From Thermaerobacter subterraneus DSM 13965 (GTDB lineage: Bacteria; Bacillota; Sulfobacillia; Thermaerobacterales; Thermaerobacteraceae), in the NCBI RefSeq assembly GCF_000183545.2, contig NZ_JH976536.1, positions 62,001 through 126,000 of the forward strand: a DNA stretch of 64,000 nt. The letters are read 5' to 3'. The notes under the pieces are model-generated. The model saw nothing but the letters and a program-made list of their open reading frames with translations. It had not been told where the DNA came from and did no database searches. Made by a program: the position numbers and the translations under genes. Positions 833-22,020 of the stretch are shown here, piece after piece; position 1 is the stretch's first letter, and the number at the start of each line of letters is the position of its first letter.

Positions 833-2502
833 TGGACCACGACCAGCCGCAGCGTCCTGGCGGACCCCAGGCGGCCGCCGGGGTGCCCGCGGGTGCCCAG
901 GCGGCGGAGGGCGTGCCGGCCGGGCCCCAGAACCGGGGACCGGTGGCGGACCGGGGCTCGCCGGCGCCGGCCGCCATGGCGGCCGGAACGGCGCCCGGGC
1001 AGGCCGAACCCGCCCCCGTGGGGGCCGAGCCGGAGCCGCTGATCTTCAGCTACAGCCGGCCCGGCCGCGGGGGCATGGTCTGGCCCGAGCCCGACGTCCC
1101 GGTGCGGCCTGTGGAGGAACGGGTGCCGGCCGAACTGCTGCGCCAGGAGGCCCCCGCCCTGCCGGAGGTGGCCGAGGTCGACCTGGTCCGGCACTATACC
1201 CGCCTGAGCCAGATGAACCACGCCGTGGACACCGGGTTCTACCCGCTGGGCTCGTGCACCATGAAGTACAACCCCAAGGTGAACGAGCGGGTGGCGGCCT
1301 TGCCCGGCTTTGCCGGCCTGCACCCGTACGTGCCCGACGAGCTGGCTCAAGGGGCGCTTCGGCTCATGTGGGAGCTGGAACGGGCGCTCTGCGAGATGGG
1401 CGGCATGACCCGGGCCACCTTGCAGCCGGCGGCCGGCGCCCACGGGGAACTGACGGGCATCCTGCTGATCCGGGCGTATCACCGCGCCCGGGGCCAGGGC
1501 CACCGCCACAAGGTCATCGTGCCCGACTCCGCCCACGGGACCAACCCGGCCACGGCCGCCATGGCCGGCTACCGGGTGGTGGAGGTGCCCTCCGACGCCC
1601 GGGGCGGGGTCGACCTCGGCGCCCTGGAGGCCGCGCTGGACGACGACGTGGCCGCCCTCATGCTGACCAACCCCAACACCCTGGGGCTCTTCGACGAGAA
1701 CATCCACCGCATCGCGGAGATGGTCCACGCCGCGGGCGGGCTTCTCTACTACGACGGCGCCAACGCCAACGCCATCCTGGGCATCTCGCGCCCGGGGGAC
1801 ATGGGCTTCGACGTGGTCCACTTCAACCTGCACAAGACCTTCTCCACGCCCCACGGCGGCGGCGGGCCCGGGTCGGGCCCGGTCGGCGTGAAGGAGGAGC
1901 TGGTGCCCTTCCTGCCGGCGCCCCTGGTGGAGCGGGACCCGGCCACGGGCCGGTTCTACCTGGACTACGAGCGGCCCCAGGCCATCGGGCGGATGCGTTC
2001 CTTCTACGGCAACTTTGCGATCCTGGTCCGGGCCTACACCTACATCCGGGCGCTGGGGGCCGAAGGGCTGCGCCGGGTCAGCGAGGACGCGGTGCTCAAT
2101 GCCAACTACGTCATGCGGCAGCTGGCCGGCCTGTTCCGGCTGCCCTACGACCGCACCTGCATGCACGAGTTCGTCCTCTCGGCCGCCAACCTCAAGGAGC
2201 GCACGGGGGTACGGGCCCTGGACGTGGCCAAGCGGCTGCTGGACTTCGGGATCCACCCGCCGACCATCTACTTCCCGCTCATCGTGGAAGAGGCGCTGAT
2301 GATCGAGCCCACGGAGACCGAGAGCAAGGAGACCCTCGACCGCTTCGTGGCCGTCATGCGCCGGATCGTACGGGAGGCCCAGGAGGAACCCGAGGTGGTC
2401 CGGCAGGCGCCCCACACCACGCCGGTCAGCCGCCTGGACGAGGCCCTGGCGGCGCGGCGGCCCGTGTTGCGCTGGCGGCCTGAAGGGGAGGACGCGCGAT
2501 GA
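829..2502 (+). CDS. gcvPB: Glycine dehydrogenase (P-protein) subunit 2
   Basis: The PLP-binding beta half of the glycine cleavage P-protein. The cofactor lysine is K336, in the motif [16 protein letters not shown]; the preceding [10 protein letters not shown] and YDGANANAI stretches are also family hallmarks. At 557 residues it is longer than the usual 480-490 because of a Pro/Ala/Gly-rich N-terminal extension of roughly 65 residues before the conserved part begins (near [10 protein letters not shown]). The start overlaps the gcvPA stop. The stop overlaps the start of apt (ATGA), so the three genes form one translationally coupled unit. The extension looks like low-complexity sequence typical of this genome rather than a domain. 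Confidence 0.96.
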
Positions 2503-3149
2503 GCCGCGGGGAGGAACGGGTGCCGGGCGCCCATGACCGCGCCGGCGAGGCCGGTCAGGGAGTCCGGGAGGGAGAGGCCCGCCGCCCTGCGCCCGGACCC
2601 GAGCCCGGCTCGCGTCCGGGCGGCGGTGCGGTGGAGGCGTCGTTGCGGGCGCGGATCCGGCAAGTGCCCGGCTATCCGGTCCCGGGGGTGACCTTCCTTG
2701 ACATCACCCCGCTCCTGGCCGACGGGGCGGCCCTGGGCCAGGCGGTGGAGGCCCTGGCCGCGGCCGTGGCGGGGATCGAATTCGACCGGGTGCTGGGTAT
2801 CGAGGCCCGCGGGTTCATCCTGGGGGCACCGCTGGCGGTGCGCCTGGGCAAGGGCTTCATCCCCGCCCGCAAGCCGGGCAAGCTGCCCCTGGAGGTGGCC
2901 CGCCAGGAATACCAGCTGGAGTATGGCCAGGCGGCCATCGAAGTCCACCAGGACGCCATCCGGCCCGGCGACCGGATCCTGATCGTCGACGACGTCCTGG
3001 CCACCGGAGGAACCAGCGCCGCTGCCGCCGCCCTGGTGGAACAGCTGGGCGGCCGGGTGGCCGGATTCGCCTACCTCATCGAGATCGTTGCCCTGGGGGG
3101 CCGCCGGCGCCTGGGAGATCGCCCGGTGCGGGTCGTCCTGCCCTCCTGA
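2499..3149 (+). CDS. apt: Adenine phosphoribosyltransferase
   Basis: Purine-salvage enzyme that makes AMP from adenine and PRPP in the cytoplasm. The PRPP loop [16 protein letters not shown] and the RGF segment ([12 protein letters not shown]) are clear. The conserved enzyme starts near residue 45 and would alone be about 170 residues, the usual size. Residues 1-45 are a Gly/Pro/Arg-rich extension. The start at 2499 is chosen because GGGGAGG lies just upstream and the ATG overlaps the gcvPB stop. A GTG at 2631 would give a normal-length protein but has no clear ribosome site. Its place behind gcvPB may link glycine-derived one-carbon units with purines, but that is inference. Confidence 0.93.
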
Positions 3150-3181
3150 GGAGCGGATCGGCCGGGCGGGCACGGGCCCGC

Positions 3182-3209
3182 GGCCCGGCCCCGGCCCGGG
3201 GGCCGGGCC
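3182..3209. other. GC hairpin after apt
   Basis: A perfect 11-bp inverted repeat (3182-3192 with 3199-3209) around a 6-base loop follows the apt stop. No T-run follows, so it is not a classical intrinsic terminator. It could slow polymerase, protect the 3' end of the upstream message, or simply reflect base composition. The 10-base word ATTCCATGCC occurs twice just after it (3210 and 3240), the second copy close to the ribosome site of the next gene. Confidence 0.4.
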
Positions 3210-3263
3210 ATTCCATGCCCCCGGGCCAGGGGCCGGAGGATTCCATGCCAGGGGAGGCGAAGG

Positions 3264-4385
3264 ATGATGGCCTTGACGGTGCCCGCCGATCGCGCAACCC
3301 AGACGGCCCAGCGCCTGGCACGGCTGCGGGAGCGGATGGCGGCAGAGGGACTGGAAGCGGTCTGGATCGGCAGCCCGGCCAACCGCCGTTACCTGAGCGG
3401 CTTTTCGGGCAGCTCGGGGTGGCTGCTCATCACCGCCACCGGCGCCCAGCTGTGGACGGACTTCCGCTACCTGGAGCAGGCGGCCCAGGAGGCCCCGGGC
3501 TATGAGGTGGTGCGCCACGAGGCGCAGGTGTACGCCCACCTGGCCCGGCACCTGCAGGAGGTGGGGGTCCGCCGGCTCGGCTTCGAGGCCGAGCACGTGC
3601 GCTACGGCGACTGGCAGCGCCTGCGGGCGGCCCTGCCGGAAGAGGTCGAGCTGGTGGGCATCAGCGGCTGGGTCGAGCAACTGCGCCGGGTGAAGGATGA
3701 GGTGGAACTGGCCCTCATTCGCGAGGCCGCGCGCCTGGCCGACGAGGCGCTCCTGGAGGTCCTGGCGGGGCTGCGGCCGGGGGTCACGGAGCGCCAGCTG
3801 GCGCTGGAGCTGGAGTTCGCCATGCGCCGGCGCGGGGCGACGGCGGCGGCCTTCGACCTGATCGTGGTCTCGGGCCCGCGCTCGGCCCTGCCCCACGGGC
3901 AGCCGGGGGATCATGCCATCGAAGCCGGCCAGTTCGTCACCCTGGATTATGGGGCCGTGGTGGGCGGGTACTGTTCCGACTGCACCCGTACGGTGGTGGC
4001 CGGACGGGCCACGCCCCGGCACAGGGAAATCTACCAGGTGGTGCTGGAGGCCCAGCGCCGCGCCGTGGCCGCCATCCGGCCCGGGGTCAGCGGGGCGGAG
4101 GTGGACCGGGCCGCCCGCCAGGTGATCGAAGAGGCCGGCTACGGCGACCGGTTCGGCCATGCCACGGGCCACGGCGTGGGCTTGGAGGTCCACGAGGGTC
4201 CCCGCCTCTCGGCCCTGGCCGAGGAGGACCGGCTGGAACCGGGCATGGTGGTGACGGTGGAGCCCGGCATCTACATTCCGGGGTGGGGCGGCGTGCGCAT
4301 CGAGGACCTGGTGGTCGTCACCGCCGACGGCGGCGAGATCCTGACCCGGGTCAGCAAGGAGCTGCTGGAGGTGGGCGTGGCCTGA
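3264..4385 (+). CDS. Xaa-Pro aminopeptidase (M24B family)
   Basis: Metallopeptidase that removes an N-terminal residue preceding proline; cytoplasmic, peptide turnover. It has the creatinase-like N-terminal domain ([20 protein letters not shown]) and the pita-bread C-terminal domain. Metal ligands are visible in [17 protein letters not shown] (two Asp), [14 protein letters not shown] (His), VTVEPGIY (Glu) and [10 protein letters not shown] (Glu). The length of 373 fits the short YqhT/PepQ-type enzymes found directly before efp in many Firmicutes. GGGGAGG sits 7 bases before the ATG; a second ATG at 3267 is equally possible. The exact substrate preference cannot be read from sequence. Confidence 0.92.
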
Positions 4386-16817: not shown

Positions 16818-17362
16818 TGCCTCGTCGGAGGAACATCAACGAAAGCCGGGATCGCGGCTCGCAGCAGGCCGGGCCGGCGTCCGGCCCGGAACCGGTGATT
16901 CTGGCGGGCGACGCGGTGTCCCCGGGTTCGACGGAGGCGCCGGCCGGTGCGCCCGCAGGGGACCCGCCGGCGGTGGGGAACCCGCCGGCTGCGGGGGCCG
17001 GCGGGCCCTCGGCGGCGGCACGGGCCGGAACCCGGACGGTCGAGCCCGCCGGCAGGCCCGGGGACCAGGGAGCCGGGGCCTCCGCGGCCCCGGACGGCGG
17101 GGCCTCCCCTGGTGAAGCCTCGTTTGAAGAAATGCTGGCCGAGCTCGAGGCGATCGTGACGCGGCTCGAGTCCGGCGACGAGCCCCTGGACCGGGCGCTG
17201 GCGCTGTTCCAGCGGGGCATCGGCCTGGTTCGCCGGTGCAACCAGCTCCTCGATGCCATGGAACGCAAGATCCAGTGGCTGCTGGAAGACGCGGCGGGGA
17301 CCGTCGTGACCCGCGAGGCCCCGGAGCTGGAGCCGGCAGCCGCAGAAGGCGAGGGCCACTGA
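16814..17362 (+). CDS. xseB: Exodeoxyribonuclease VII small subunit
   Basis: The XseB helical hairpin occupies only residues 100-160 (SFEEMLAELEAIVTRLESG and LDRALALFQRGIGLVRRCN). It is preceded by about 95 residues of Ala/Pro/Gly-rich sequence, so the protein is 182 residues where 70-80 is usual. Start GTG 16814 is immediately followed by ATG 16817; AGGAGG upstream fits either, the ATG slightly better. If the whole reading frame is translated this would be an unusually long XseB, but a start inside the frame cannot be excluded. Confidence 0.85.
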   Translation: MMPRRRNINESRDRGSQQAGPASGPEPVILAGDAVSPGSTEAPAGAPAGDPPAVGNPPAAGAGGPSAAARAGTRTVEPAGRPGDQGAGASAAPDGGASPGEASFEEMLAELEAIVTRLESGDEPLDRALALFQRGIGLVRRCNQLLDAMERKIQWLLEDAAGTVVTREAPELEPAAAEGEGH

Positions 17363-18348
17363 TGGCGGAAGGACATGAAGAACGCCGCGCAGCTCTACCG
17401 CCCGTGCAGAGCGCCGCCCGGGAGCCGGCTGGCGCGCTGCCGGGCGCGGCGTCCTGGCGCCGGGAAGTGGACCAGCTGGTGCTGCGCGCGCGCCGTGCCC
17501 TGGACCAGGTGCTCCCCCCGGTCACCGCGCCGCCGTCGCGCATCCACGAGGCCATGCGCTACAGCACGCTGGCGGGCGGCAAGGCCCTGCGCCCCGTCCT
17601 GCTGATGGCCGCCGCGCGCTGCGTGGGCGGTCCCCAGGTCGTCACCCCGGCGGTGGAACGGGCGGCGGCCGCCGTGGAGCTGGTCCACACCTACTCGCTG
17701 ATCCACGATGACCTGCCGGCCATGGACGATGACGACATGCGCCGGGGCCAGCCGGCCAACCATGTGGTCTTCGGCGAGGCCATGGCCATCCTGGCGGGGG
17801 ACGCCCTGCTGACCCTGGCCTTCGAGGTGCTGGCCGGCTTGCCCCGCTGGGGCGCCGATCCGGCGGTCGCCCTGGCGGTGGTGGAGGAACTGGCCGTGGC
17901 GGCAGGGACGGCCGGGCTGATCGGCGGCCAGGTGGACGACCTGGCCGCTACCACGGCGGCGGGCCTGGATCTCGCGGGACTGCAGTCCATCCACCGCCGG
18001 AAGACGGGCGCCCTGTTCCGTGCCTGCGTGCGCATGGGCGCCCGCCTGGCCGGCGCAACGGCTACGGAACTGGAGGCCCTGACCGCGTTCGCCACCGCCT
18101 TCGGCGAAGCCTTCCAGATCGTGGACGACATCCTGGACGTCACCGGCGACGAGGCGGAGCTGGGCAAGCCCGTGGGAAGCGACGCGCGCCAGGGCAAGGT
18201 CACGGTGCCCGGCCTGGTGGGTCTGGAGGCGGCCCGGCGGCTGGCGGCGGCGGCGACGGAGCGCGCCGTGGCCAGCCTCGAGCCCCTGGGCGACCGCGCC
18301 GGCCTGCTGGCCTGGCTGGCCCGGGACCTGCTGGAGCGCCGGCGCTGA
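17362..18348 (+). CDS. ispA: Geranylgeranyl/farnesyl diphosphate synthase
   Basis: Trans-prenyltransferase joining isopentenyl diphosphate units. The first aspartate-rich motif lies in SLIHDDLPAMDDDDMRRG and the second in QIVDDILDVTGD; GGKALRP binds IPP. It has 328 residues. Start ATG 17362 overlaps the xseB stop. The preceding 35 residues before EVDQLVLRARR are variable. In OLE-bearing Firmicutes this gene stands upstream of OLE RNA, oapA and dxs, exactly as here. The chain length of the product (C15 or C20) cannot be told from sequence alone. Confidence 0.94.
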   Translation: MAEGHEERRAALPPVQSAAREPAGALPGAASWRREVDQLVLRARRALDQVLPPVTAPPSRIHEAMRYSTLAGGKALRPVLLMAAARCVGGPQVVTPAVERAAAAVELVHTYSLIHDDLPAMDDDDMRRGQPANHVVFGEAMAILAGDALLTLAFEVLAGLPRWGADPAVALAVVEELAVAAGTAGLIGGQVDDLAATTAAGLDLAGLQSIHRRKTGALFRACVRMGARLAGATATELEALTAFATAFGEAFQIVDDILDVTGDEAELGKPVGSDARQGKVTVPGLVGLEAARRLAAAATERAVASLEPLGDRAGLLAWLARDLLERRR

Positions 18349-18378
18349 CGGCAGGCGCCGGCGTGGACACTGCGAGGT

Positions 18379-18408
18379 CCCCGGTGCGGCGCGGCCGCCG
18401 CACCGGGG
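18379..18408. other. GC hairpin after ispA
   Basis: A perfect 12-bp stem, CCCCGGTGCGGC (18379-18390) with 18397-18408, and a 6-base loop lie 30 bases after the ispA stop. No T-run follows. It may terminate or attenuate transcription, or be the 3' boundary of the upstream message where OLE RNA is processed from a longer transcript. Confidence 0.5.
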
Positions 18409-18580
18409 AAGCACGGACCGCCGCACCTGGAAGGGAATGGTGTCGCCGGCGGCGAAAGGTCCTTGCGGCGGCGGCGCGGCCATGATATCGTAAGCGACCT
18501 GCGGCGCGGCGCGGCGTGATCGGGCGCGGCGCGGGGCATCGCCCCCGGACGGGACCGGTGGCCGTCGGCGGTGATTGCGA

Positions 18581-18641
18581 TACAATAGGCTTTGAACAGG
18601 CCTTGCACTGCAAAACAGGCCGGCACGACCAGGTTTTGCAG
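18581..18641 (+). promoter_or_regulatory. Possible OLE leader: TACAAT box and 9-bp hairpin
   Basis: TACAAT at 18581-18586 is a decent -10 in this genome, though no matching -35 is seen. It is followed by a perfect inverted repeat, CTGCAAAAC (18608-18616) with GTTTTGCAG (18633-18641), around 16 bases. The AT-content here is far above the surrounding genes. This could be the promoter and leader of OLE RNA or a processing site. Confidence 0.35.
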
Positions 18642-18654
18642 GATTCATCTTTGA

Positions 18655-19310
18655 CAACTTTTGTCTGCGGGTGGCGCAGTATCCTAGTCGGCACCCGTGC
18701 TTCTGAAGGCGGGCCTAAAAATCCGCCATACGGGCACATCGATGAAGTTCCTGGTGGCGGCTGCCGACGCCCAGTCGGGGGTCGCTGCTGGGAGTTAAGG
18801 GGCCGGGGCGATCTGCAATGGCATGCAGGCGTTGACCCTGACCCCGCGGAGGCCCATGGCCGTGGCCGGTTCGACTTGCACGCGCCGCTACGGCATGGGG
18901 TATGAACCTGCATGCGGGATGACCGTGTGCAGCGTAGCCCGCCCTGCGTGGGCCGGGTGGAGGAAGCAGGACGGCCTCCGGTTCCGGAGGGCCCCCGGGC
19001 CGGGAGGCTTGCTCTGAAACCCGGCCTGCTAAACGGGCTAGGAAGCACCGGGGAGCCGCCGGGGAAAACCCCTAGGCTGTTTCCCGCACGGGAAGGCACG
19101 CTGGGGATTACAGTGCGCGCTAAGTGGCAATCTAGCCCTGCCGGCGGCGACGCGGCAGGCTGGCCGCGCAAAGGGAAACCGCCGGGCCGGCGACGGCCCG
19201 GTCGGCCAGTGGGAAAACCTGCTAGACCTCAAGCCGCAACGTTTACTCAGCGTGCTGCCACCCGCAGTGCTTTTGGCCTCGTGGCCAGCGCAGCCTTTCT
19301 GGCCCAGTGG
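18655..19310 (+). ncRNA. ole: OLE RNA (ornate large extremophilic RNA)
   Basis: About 650 bases without a credible protein, lying between ispA and a small membrane-protein gene followed by dxs. That is the known locus of OLE RNA, a very large structured RNA of extremophilic Firmicutes that binds the membrane protein OapA. The sequence is packed with short helices: 18668-18673 with 18692-18697; 18708-18712 with 18723-18727; 18764-18768 with 18774-18778; 18998-19004 with 19020-19026; a GGGGAAAACCCC loop at 19061-19072; and 19081-19085 with 19090-19094. Further helices are 19137-19143 with 19153-19159, and 19160-19166 with 19203-19209. The last encloses an 8-bp helix capped by a GCGA tetraloop (19182-19201). 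Unpaired A-rich joints occur throughout. The identification rests on gene order, size and structure; I could not run the family covariance model. Ends are approximate. Confidence 0.78.
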
Positions 19311-19335
19311 ATGCGATCCGCCTGGGCCGTTTGTT

Positions 19336-19359
19336 TCTATGTGCTCCTCTATGTGCTCC
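19336..19359. repeat. 12-bp tandem repeat between OLE RNA and oapA
   Basis: TCTATGTGCTCC occurs twice in direct succession (19336-19347 and 19348-19359) in a T-rich patch just past the structured RNA. It is followed by short C/G-rich half-repeats (GCTTCGCGCC, GCTTCCGGCG) before the oapA ribosome site. Function unknown. Confidence 0.75.
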
Positions 19360-19437
19360 ATGGGAGCGTCGCTTCGCGCCGCTTCCGGCGCTTCCGGTGC
19401 GGGCCGGACGGGAACGGGTTGATGGAGGGATGGCCGG

Positions 19438-20106
19438 TTGGCGCGCGGTCAGGCCTCACGCTACACCCCGGGATGGAAGCGGGGCGTGGGGCTCGGTCTG
19501 CTCACCTTTGTGATCGCCCTCGTGACCTCACCCTTGTCGGAGTCGGCGGTTCGGGCCCTCAACCTGCCGCTGGCCGTCCTCATCGTGGTGGTGATTGTCG
19601 CCCTGGGCGTGGTGTTCGATATCATCGGCGTGGCGGCCACCGCCGCAGGCGAGGCCCCCTTCCACGCCATGGCGGCCAAGCGCAGGCCGGGTGCCCGGGC
19701 GGCGCTGGGTCTGGTGCGGCACGCCGACCGGGTCGCGGCCTTTGCCAACGACGTGGTGGGCGACGTGGCGGGGACCCTGTCGGGTGCCGCCGGTGCCGCG
19801 GTGGCGCTGCGGCTGGGCCAGTGGCTGGACGGCCTGGGGACGCACCTGGTGGTGGGGCCGCTGGTGCTGGCTCTGGTGGCAGGGATCATGGTGGGAAGCA
19901 AGGCGGCCGGCAAGGGCTTTGCCCTGCGCGAGCACCAGCGGATCCTGCTGACCCTGGGAACCCTGCTGGAGGGCATCGAGCGGCTGGCCGGGATCCGGTT
20001 GTATCCGGCCCCCCGCCGCACGCGCCGGCGGGCGCGGGAAGCGGCCGGGCCGCGGAGGAAGCGAAAGGGTGGCCGGTCGCTGGCCACCGCGCAGGAGAAG
20101 GGGTGA
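19438..20106 (+). CDS. oapA: OLE-associated protein A (DUF21/CNNM-like membrane protein)
   Basis: Integral membrane protein that in Bacillus halodurans binds OLE RNA and holds it at the membrane; the complex affects tolerance of alcohol, cold and magnesium. Here 222 residues include helices at about 20-36 (GLLTFVIALVTSP), 45-65 (AVLIVVVIVALGVVFDIIGV) and 140-158 (LVVGPLVLALVAGIMVG). The central APFHAMAAKRRPGARAALG and NDVVGDVAGTLSG blocks recall the CNNM/DUF21 fold. A very basic tail (PRRTRRRAREAAGPRRKRKG) could touch RNA. The start is TTG 19438 behind GGAGGG. It lies directly 5' of dxs and 3' of the RNA, which is the main reason for the name. Confidence 0.8.
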   Translation: MARGQASRYTPGWKRGVGLGLLTFVIALVTSPLSESAVRALNLPLAVLIVVVIVALGVVFDIIGVAATAAGEAPFHAMAAKRRPGARAALGLVRHADRVAAFANDVVGDVAGTLSGAAGAAVALRLGQWLDGLGTHLVVGPLVLALVAGIMVGSKAAGKGFALREHQRILLTLGTLLEGIERLAGIRLYPAPRRTRRRAREAAGPRRKRKGGRSLATAQEKG

Positions 20107-20112
20107 GCCACG

Positions 20113-22020
20113 CTGGCCGAGATCCTCCCGCGGCTGCAAGGGCCGCAGGACCTCAAGGCGATGGATGAGGCCCAGCTCACGCAACTGGCGGCGGAGATCC
20201 GGCGGGTCATCATCGACACCGTGGCCCGGCAGGGCGGCCATCTGGGGGCCAGCCTGGGCGTGGTGGAGCTCACCCTGGCCCTGCACCGGGTCTTCGACAG
20301 CCCGAAGGACCGGATCATCTGGGACACCGGCCACCAGGCCTATCCCCACAAGCTGGTGACCGGCCGGTTCCACCGGTTTGCCACCCTGCGCCAGACCGGC
20401 GGTCTCAGCGGCTTCCTGAAACGGGACGAGAGCCCCCACGACATCGTCGAGGCAGGCCATGCGGGCACCTCCATCTCCCACGCCGTGGGCCTGGCCCGGG
20501 CCCGGGACCTGCGCGGGGAGAAGCATCACGTGGTGGCGGTCATCGGCGACGGCGCGCTGACCGCCGGCATGGCCTTCGAGGCGCTGAACCATGCCGGGCA
20601 CCTGGGCACCGACCTGCTCATCGTCCTCAACGACAACTCCATGTCCATCGCCCCCAACGTGGGAGGCCTGGCCCGCTACCTCACCCAGATTCGCACCGAT
20701 CCCGCCTACGAGCGCATGCGCGCGGAACTGGAACGGGTGCTGGAGCAACTGCCCCGGGTCGGCAGCCAGGCGGTGCGCTGGCTCCAGCGCTTCAAGGACA
20801 GCCTCAAGTACCTGGTGGTACCCGGCATGCTCTTCGAGGCGCTGGGCTTCCGCTACATCGGCCCGGTGGACGGCTACCGGCTGCGGGATCTCATCCGGGT
20901 CCTGGAAAGCACGCGGTCCATGCGGGGGCCCGTCCTGGTCCACGTCATCACCCAGAAGGGCAAGGGCTACGCGCCGGCGGAGGGCGATCCGTGGACGTGG
21001 CACGGGCCGAGGCCCTTCAACCCCGCCACCGGCAAGATGGAGCCGGCCCGGCCGGGCGAGCCGCCCTCGTACACCAGCGTCTTCGCCCGGACCCTGGTGG
21101 AACTGGCCCGGAACGAGCCGCGCCTGGTGGCCATCACCGCCGCCATGCCCGACGGGACGGGGGTCGCCACCTTTGCCCGGGCCTTTCCGGAACGTGCCTT
21201 TGACGTGGGCATCGCCGAGCAGCACGCGGTGACCTTTGCGGCCGGGCTTGCCCTGGGCGGGCTCCGGCCGGTGGTGGCCATCTACTCCACCTTCTTGCAG
21301 CGGGCCTTCGACCAGGTGGTCCATGACGTGGGGCTGCAGCGCCTGCCGGTGATCTTCGCCATCGACCGGGCGGGCATCGTGGGCGCCGACGGCGAGACCC
21401 ACCAGGGGCTTTACGACATCGCCTACCTGCGCCCGCTGCCCGGGTTCGTGCTCATGGCGCCCCGGGACGAGAACGAGCTGCAGCACATGCTCAAGACCGC
21501 CGTGGCCTACGAGGCCGGTCCGGTGGCGATCCGCTGGCCACGGGGCAGCGGGGTGGGCGTCCCGCTGGAGGAGCCGCGGGTTCTTCCCATCGGTCGGGCG
21601 GAACTGCTGCGCTCCGGCCGGGACGTGGCCCTCATCGCCTATGGACCCCTGGCCCATGCCGCCCTGAAGGCCGCCGGCCAGCTGGCCCAGGAGGGAATCC
21701 AGGCAGCGGTGGTCAACGCGCGGTTTGCCAAGCCCCTGGACGAGGCGTTGCTCTGCGACCTGCTGGCCACGACCCGCTGCGCCGTCACCATCGAGGAGCA
21801 CGTGCTGGCCGGCGGGTTCGGCAGCGCCGTCCTGGAGATGGCGGCCCGGCACGGCCTGGATGCACGCATCCGGTGCCTGGGCGTGCCGGACCGGGTGGTC
21901 GAACACGGCGACCCGGCGCACTTCCGCACCCTCTTCGGCCTTACGCCAGAGGGCATTGCCAGGGCCGCCCGGGAGCTGGTGGGCGCCGCCGCCCCCAGGC
22001 GGCGCCGGGCCGGCGGATGA
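20113..22020 (+). CDS. dxs: 1-deoxy-D-xylulose-5-phosphate synthase, non-ATG start
   Basis: Thiamine-diphosphate enzyme for the first step of the MEP isoprenoid pathway (pyruvate plus glyceraldehyde 3-phosphate). Visible are [13 protein letters not shown], the ThDP motif [20 protein letters not shown] with [11 protein letters not shown], and the transketolase half with [13 protein letters not shown] and [14 protein letters not shown]. The first in-frame ATG is 20161, but homologous N-terminal sequence ([15 protein letters not shown]) begins before it. In that stretch only CTG 20113 or ACG 20110 can start, after an in-frame stop at 20104. A GGAGAAGGGGTGA ribosome site ends 6 bases before the CTG, so I place the start there (635 residues). 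The gene begins 6 bases after oapA. Confidence 0.93.

Follow-up and report, generated by a model that had tools for sequence, protein, structure and literature searches.

OLE is a large, membrane-associated, structured RNA of Gram-positive bacteria. It is among the largest conserved bacterial RNAs, and its biochemical action is yet to be worked out. A published survey found OLE across most classes of Bacillota with a few matches elsewhere (PMC11332333), a spread wider than that given by the initial annotation of this locus, whose statement that OLE is confined to extremophilic or anaerobic Firmicutes was too strict. Besides the full-length type, variant types with short P7, P8 and P9 have been described (PMC11332333). 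Published models already name the outer stems P1, P2 and P3, and P3 has been proposed to cross the membrane (PMC12265935). Several other parts of the RNA have been assigned contacts: the kink-turn motif is bound by OapC (PMC9723947), the P4 loop (L4) is a dimer contact (PMC12286853, PMC12265935), L5.1 and L6.1 are kissing partners between the two monomers (PMC12265935), and the P9 tip is a self-kissing loop (PMC12286853). bS21 is reported to be a further component of the OLE particle (PMC12054373). Across lineages, OLE and the exporter MpfA are anticorrelated and usually mutually exclusive, and MpfA has been proposed as a stand-in for OLE in lineages without it (PMC11332333). OapA is distantly related to the CNNM domain of MpfA and other CNNM-CBS-CorC exporters (PMC11332333), but unlike these it has neither a CBS nor a CorC domain and acts together with an RNA. 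Our literature search for OLE RNA together with Thermaerobacter or with Symbiobacterium found no papers.

A full-length OLE RNA in Thermaerobacter subterraneus

When the window, the whole stretch of 64,000 nucleotides of T. subterraneus DNA analysed here, was scanned with Rfam, the sole match was RF01071 (OLE) at 18655-19277 on the + strand, with 448.2 bits (E = 2.6e-128) against a gathering score of 50 bits. The alignment spans model positions 1-616 of 616, end to end, and 149 of its 157 aligned model pairs are canonical. OLE had been named from the letters alone, with the covariance-model search proposed as a check, and the search confirmed the name over the full model. The genome (2.89 Mb, two contigs) holds a single copy and no second one, and no OLE match was obtained in any of 14 control genomes. 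It is virtually certain that 18655-19277 (+) encodes OLE RNA. Since the OLE system has already been described, the identification is in itself of modest interest; the RNA family is well described, and the locus makes a textbook example of it, not a novel find.

The RF01071 alignment includes P7, P8 and the long P9 arm, which rules out variant 1 or 2, where these elements are shortened or missing. The window copy has the core and the neighbouring oapA in common with the variant types but is full length, whereas two further families of its class have variant-like copies. With the full-length type of RF01071 it shares model coverage, conserved motifs, the order ispA-OLE-oapA-dxs and the genes for OapA, OapB and OapC, and it stands out by its very G+C-rich stems (67% G+C), which is no difference of kind.

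The extent of the RNA was assessed by comparison with three congeners, among which OLE is better conserved than its flanks. Identity rose from 0.16-0.38 in the bin that starts at 18600 to 0.74-1.00 in the next one, where the RNA begins (from 18650), was high only over about 18650-19275, and dropped to 0.08-0.76 from 19300 on. Because identity falls outside these points, the most likely extent of the RNA is about 18650-19275. Of the ends put forward earlier (18655-19310), the 5' end therefore stands, while the 3' end was about 33 bases too long and is better placed near 19277 by both Rfam and congener conservation. The spacer, described as about 1 kb without coding potential, measures about 1.09 kb (18349-19437) and holds no homologous protein genes, although mechanical open reading frames do cross it, among them 18912-20168 on the + strand and 18200-19171 on the - strand.

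Helices supported by covariation

The three helices singled out in the initial annotation were all found in the sequence at the coordinates given. The 8-bp stem CCGGGCCG-GCGA-CGGCCCGG (19182-19201) is nested within a 7-bp closing helix, CTGGCCG/CGGCCAG, at 19160-19166/19203-19209 (+), and the hairpin GGGGAAAACCCC occupies 19061-19072 (+), its last base, 19072, also pairing in P2. Both the hairpin and the closing helix are backed by sequence and covariation.

For the covariation analysis, 55 loci were compared, namely the window RNA and 54 OLE loci from relatives and other genome records, including named species and metagenome-assembled genomes (MAGs). The whole RNAs were aligned with MAFFT, and the Rfam helices, projected from the window sequence, were scored together with three outer helices. 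Over 180 pairs in the 55 loci, standard pairs filled 86.4% of cells, compared with 72.3% when the 3' letters were shuffled and 40.6-47.4% when the partners were slid, so covariation, put forward earlier as a check, stood far above both controls. Pairing was weak in the distal P9 arm (48%) and in columns 862-865/904-907 (50%), which most likely reflects the difficulty of aligning variable arms.

The three outer helices, P1, P2 and P3, are unpaired in the Rfam OLE alignment. In the 55 loci, 90.4% of their cells were paired against 74.6% for shuffled letters and 38.4-51.3% for slid partners, a slid control that somewhat favours these helices, as their structure was derived from the window sequence. 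Two-sided changes were seen at 17 of their 23 pairs. P1 closes the RNA with 10 bp between 18665-18674 and 19258-19267 (both +), with two-sided changes at 9/10 pairs and 87% of cells paired. P2 joins CCUAG at 18683-18687 to CUAGG at 19072-19076 (+); all of its cells (100%) are paired, four of the five pairs being invariant and one changing on both sides. P3, between 18697-18704 and 19041-19048 (+), shows two-sided changes at seven of eight pairs. Matched by position, these helices appear to be the published P1, P2 and P3, and since those stems already have names in publications, adding them completes the Rfam picture and is no discovery.

Kink-turn and contact loops

The elements reported to bind OapC or to hold the dimer together were placed by correspondence with the published structures. 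The kink-turn core is present as a 5' strand UCGAUGAAG at 18739-18747 (+), identical as a 9-mer in 44/55 loci, and a 3' strand GAGUUAAGG at 18792-18800 (+), in which the C-G pair beside the 3-nt bulge is kept in 52/55 loci; both were positioned by correspondence with PMC9723947. The A-rich L4, CCUAAAAAUCC (18714-18724, +), is an identical 11-mer in 42 of the 55 loci. The P5.1 loop ACGCCCAGU (18767-18775, +) carries GCCC in all 55, and the P6.1 loop GCAAUGGCAUGC (18815-18826, +) carries GGCA in all variants listed. At the P9 tip (18987-18996, +) lies a self-complementary GGCC, and a GGCC or GCGC palindrome is found there in 52/55 loci. At the sequence level, L4, L5.1, L6.1 and L9 are thus all represented, and the kink-turn and dimer-contact loops appear intact.

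Neighbouring genes and partner proteins

Open reading frames and homology bore out the gene order ispA-RNA-oapA-dxs, which places the RNA in the isoprenoid operon region. Upstream lies ispA (17362-18348, +), encoding farnesyl diphosphate synthase, its start probably falling inside a reading frame that opens at 17236. Downstream, oapA (19438-20106, +) starts at a TTG codon that follows GGAGGG at a distance of about 7 bases, and it encodes 222 amino acids. Since this product gave no Pfam or NCBIfam match, a family alignment was used instead, together with a local profile built from it. It is 35-50% identical to the products of 20 genes that immediately follow OLE in other genomes, with 15 invariant columns, and by this alignment the gene adjacent to the RNA is classed as a true OapA. 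The small OapA-type protein expected beside the RNA is therefore confirmed as to family, although with 222 residues it is not very small. Next comes dxs (20161-22020, +, by homology). Its homology seems to start before the first ATG (window 20107-20161), which suggests a non-ATG start codon upstream, possibly CTG at 20113 or ACG at 20110. In one congener (G003; L024, reverse complement, 2066-3616), unlike the window, a tlyA-like gene directly follows oapA, with no dxs in between.

The genome also encodes the other described partners. An OapB gene, matching PDB 7k9b (OLE-associated protein B; E = 1.3e-13), lies between map and infA by reading-frame order; a KOW family search did not pick it up, and it was found by reading the map-infA gap. 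A YbxF-type L7Ae protein, OapC, matches 3v7e (E = 2.7e-15), and bS21 is encoded as well. Because a gene for a true OapA adjoins the RNA and those for OapB, OapC and bS21 are present elsewhere in the genome, a complete OLE ribonucleoprotein would be expected.

By analogy with Halalkalibacterium halodurans and with clostridial OLE RNAs seen by cryo-EM, two copies of the RNA would pair via L4, L5.1-L6.1 and L9, and OapA would anchor the dimer in the membrane beside P3. OapB would bind the P13 region and OapC the kink-turn, the particle then acting as a membrane-bound regulator that aids adaptation to Mg2+, alcohol, cold and energy stress. We consider this regulatory mechanism somewhat more probable than not. 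Since the action of OLE is yet to be worked out, an intact, G+C-rich copy with all of its partners may offer a stable subject for structural work, with domain 2 (P1, P2 and P10-P15), which has no high-resolution view in published structures, as a special target.

Transcription signals

A promoter scan found no strong sigma-70-like promoter at the OLE locus. TTGACA at 18651-18656 was rejected as a promoter part since it has no partner at the proper distance, and TACAAT at 18581-18586 since it has no good -35. Across 71 OLE loci, TATAAT occurs within 100 bases upstream in 36 (in 29 as TGnTATAAT) versus 5.7 in shuffles, which suggests from sequence that OLE often has its own promoter. A perfect 9-bp inverted repeat, CTGCAAAAC/GTTTTGCAG, lies at 18608-18641, between the TACAAT and the 5' end of OLE; it is kept with a change in one congener and was not seen in the other two.

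Alternative explanations

A G+C content of 67% favours chance hairpins, so the region might be an ordinary GC-rich spacer, or else a 5' leader regulating oapA and dxs rather than a separate RNA. The minimum free energy of the + strand, with z = -5.3, speaks for more than chance; the - strand, too, is more stable than its shuffles (z = -2.9). The RNA precedes oapA on the same strand, and a search for intrinsic terminators on the + strand gave none between them, so co-transcription with oapA is possible. However, the covariance match and the covariation exclude chance, and conservation ends near 19275, leaving about 160 bases to the start of oapA, so that this explanation is very unlikely and the least credible of those considered. 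Scarcely more credible is the idea that the RNA is a remnant of OLE, decayed or without function, retained beside oapA. In its favour, the genome has three MpfA-type genes, the proposed stand-ins for OLE (PMC11332333), but the full-length 448-bit match with its canonical model pairs, the conservation above the flanks among congeners, the intact OapA reading frame and the presence of the OapB and OapC genes all argue against decay. Overall, the best explanation, to which we assign a probability of about 95%, is an intact OLE RNA of the full-length type with its partners encoded in the genome; it would probably work as in H. halodurans.

OLE and MpfA genes in the class

Of 154 genomes in the class, 100 have OLE. 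With 80 bits as the minimum for a CNNM match, a threshold that leaves out the weak oapA matches, an MpfA-like gene is present in 25/100 OLE-positive but 44/54 OLE-negative genomes (Fisher's test, 1e-11, with independence overstated because the genomes cluster by family), in line with the anticorrelation described in the literature (PMC11332333).

The T. subterraneus genome is the only one of the 100 OLE-positive genomes with three MpfA-type Mg2+-exporter genes, two in tandem (C1:765521-767448) and one single (C1:1653718-1654269), all with CNNM, CBS and CorC_HlyC domains. Its congeners have none or one each; the tandem pair is absent from all three, and by CNNM score two of them carry a candidate counterpart of the single gene. 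Three such genes beside an intact OLE ribonucleoprotein are mildly unexpected, and they make a concrete case for asking whether MpfA can replace OLE. That MpfA has begun taking over the role of OLE in this lineage seems to us unlikely; if true, the genome would be a natural test of the proposed replacement.

A MAG labelled Thermaerobacter marianensis also has OLE. Two further families of the class have OLE RNAs that are short and low-scoring (271-310 bits); the three that were aligned have a cut P9 arm and an altered P7/P8 and kink-turn region. The loci L092-L095 from these families retain an oapA-like gene, and most such genomes carry one or two MpfA-like genes.
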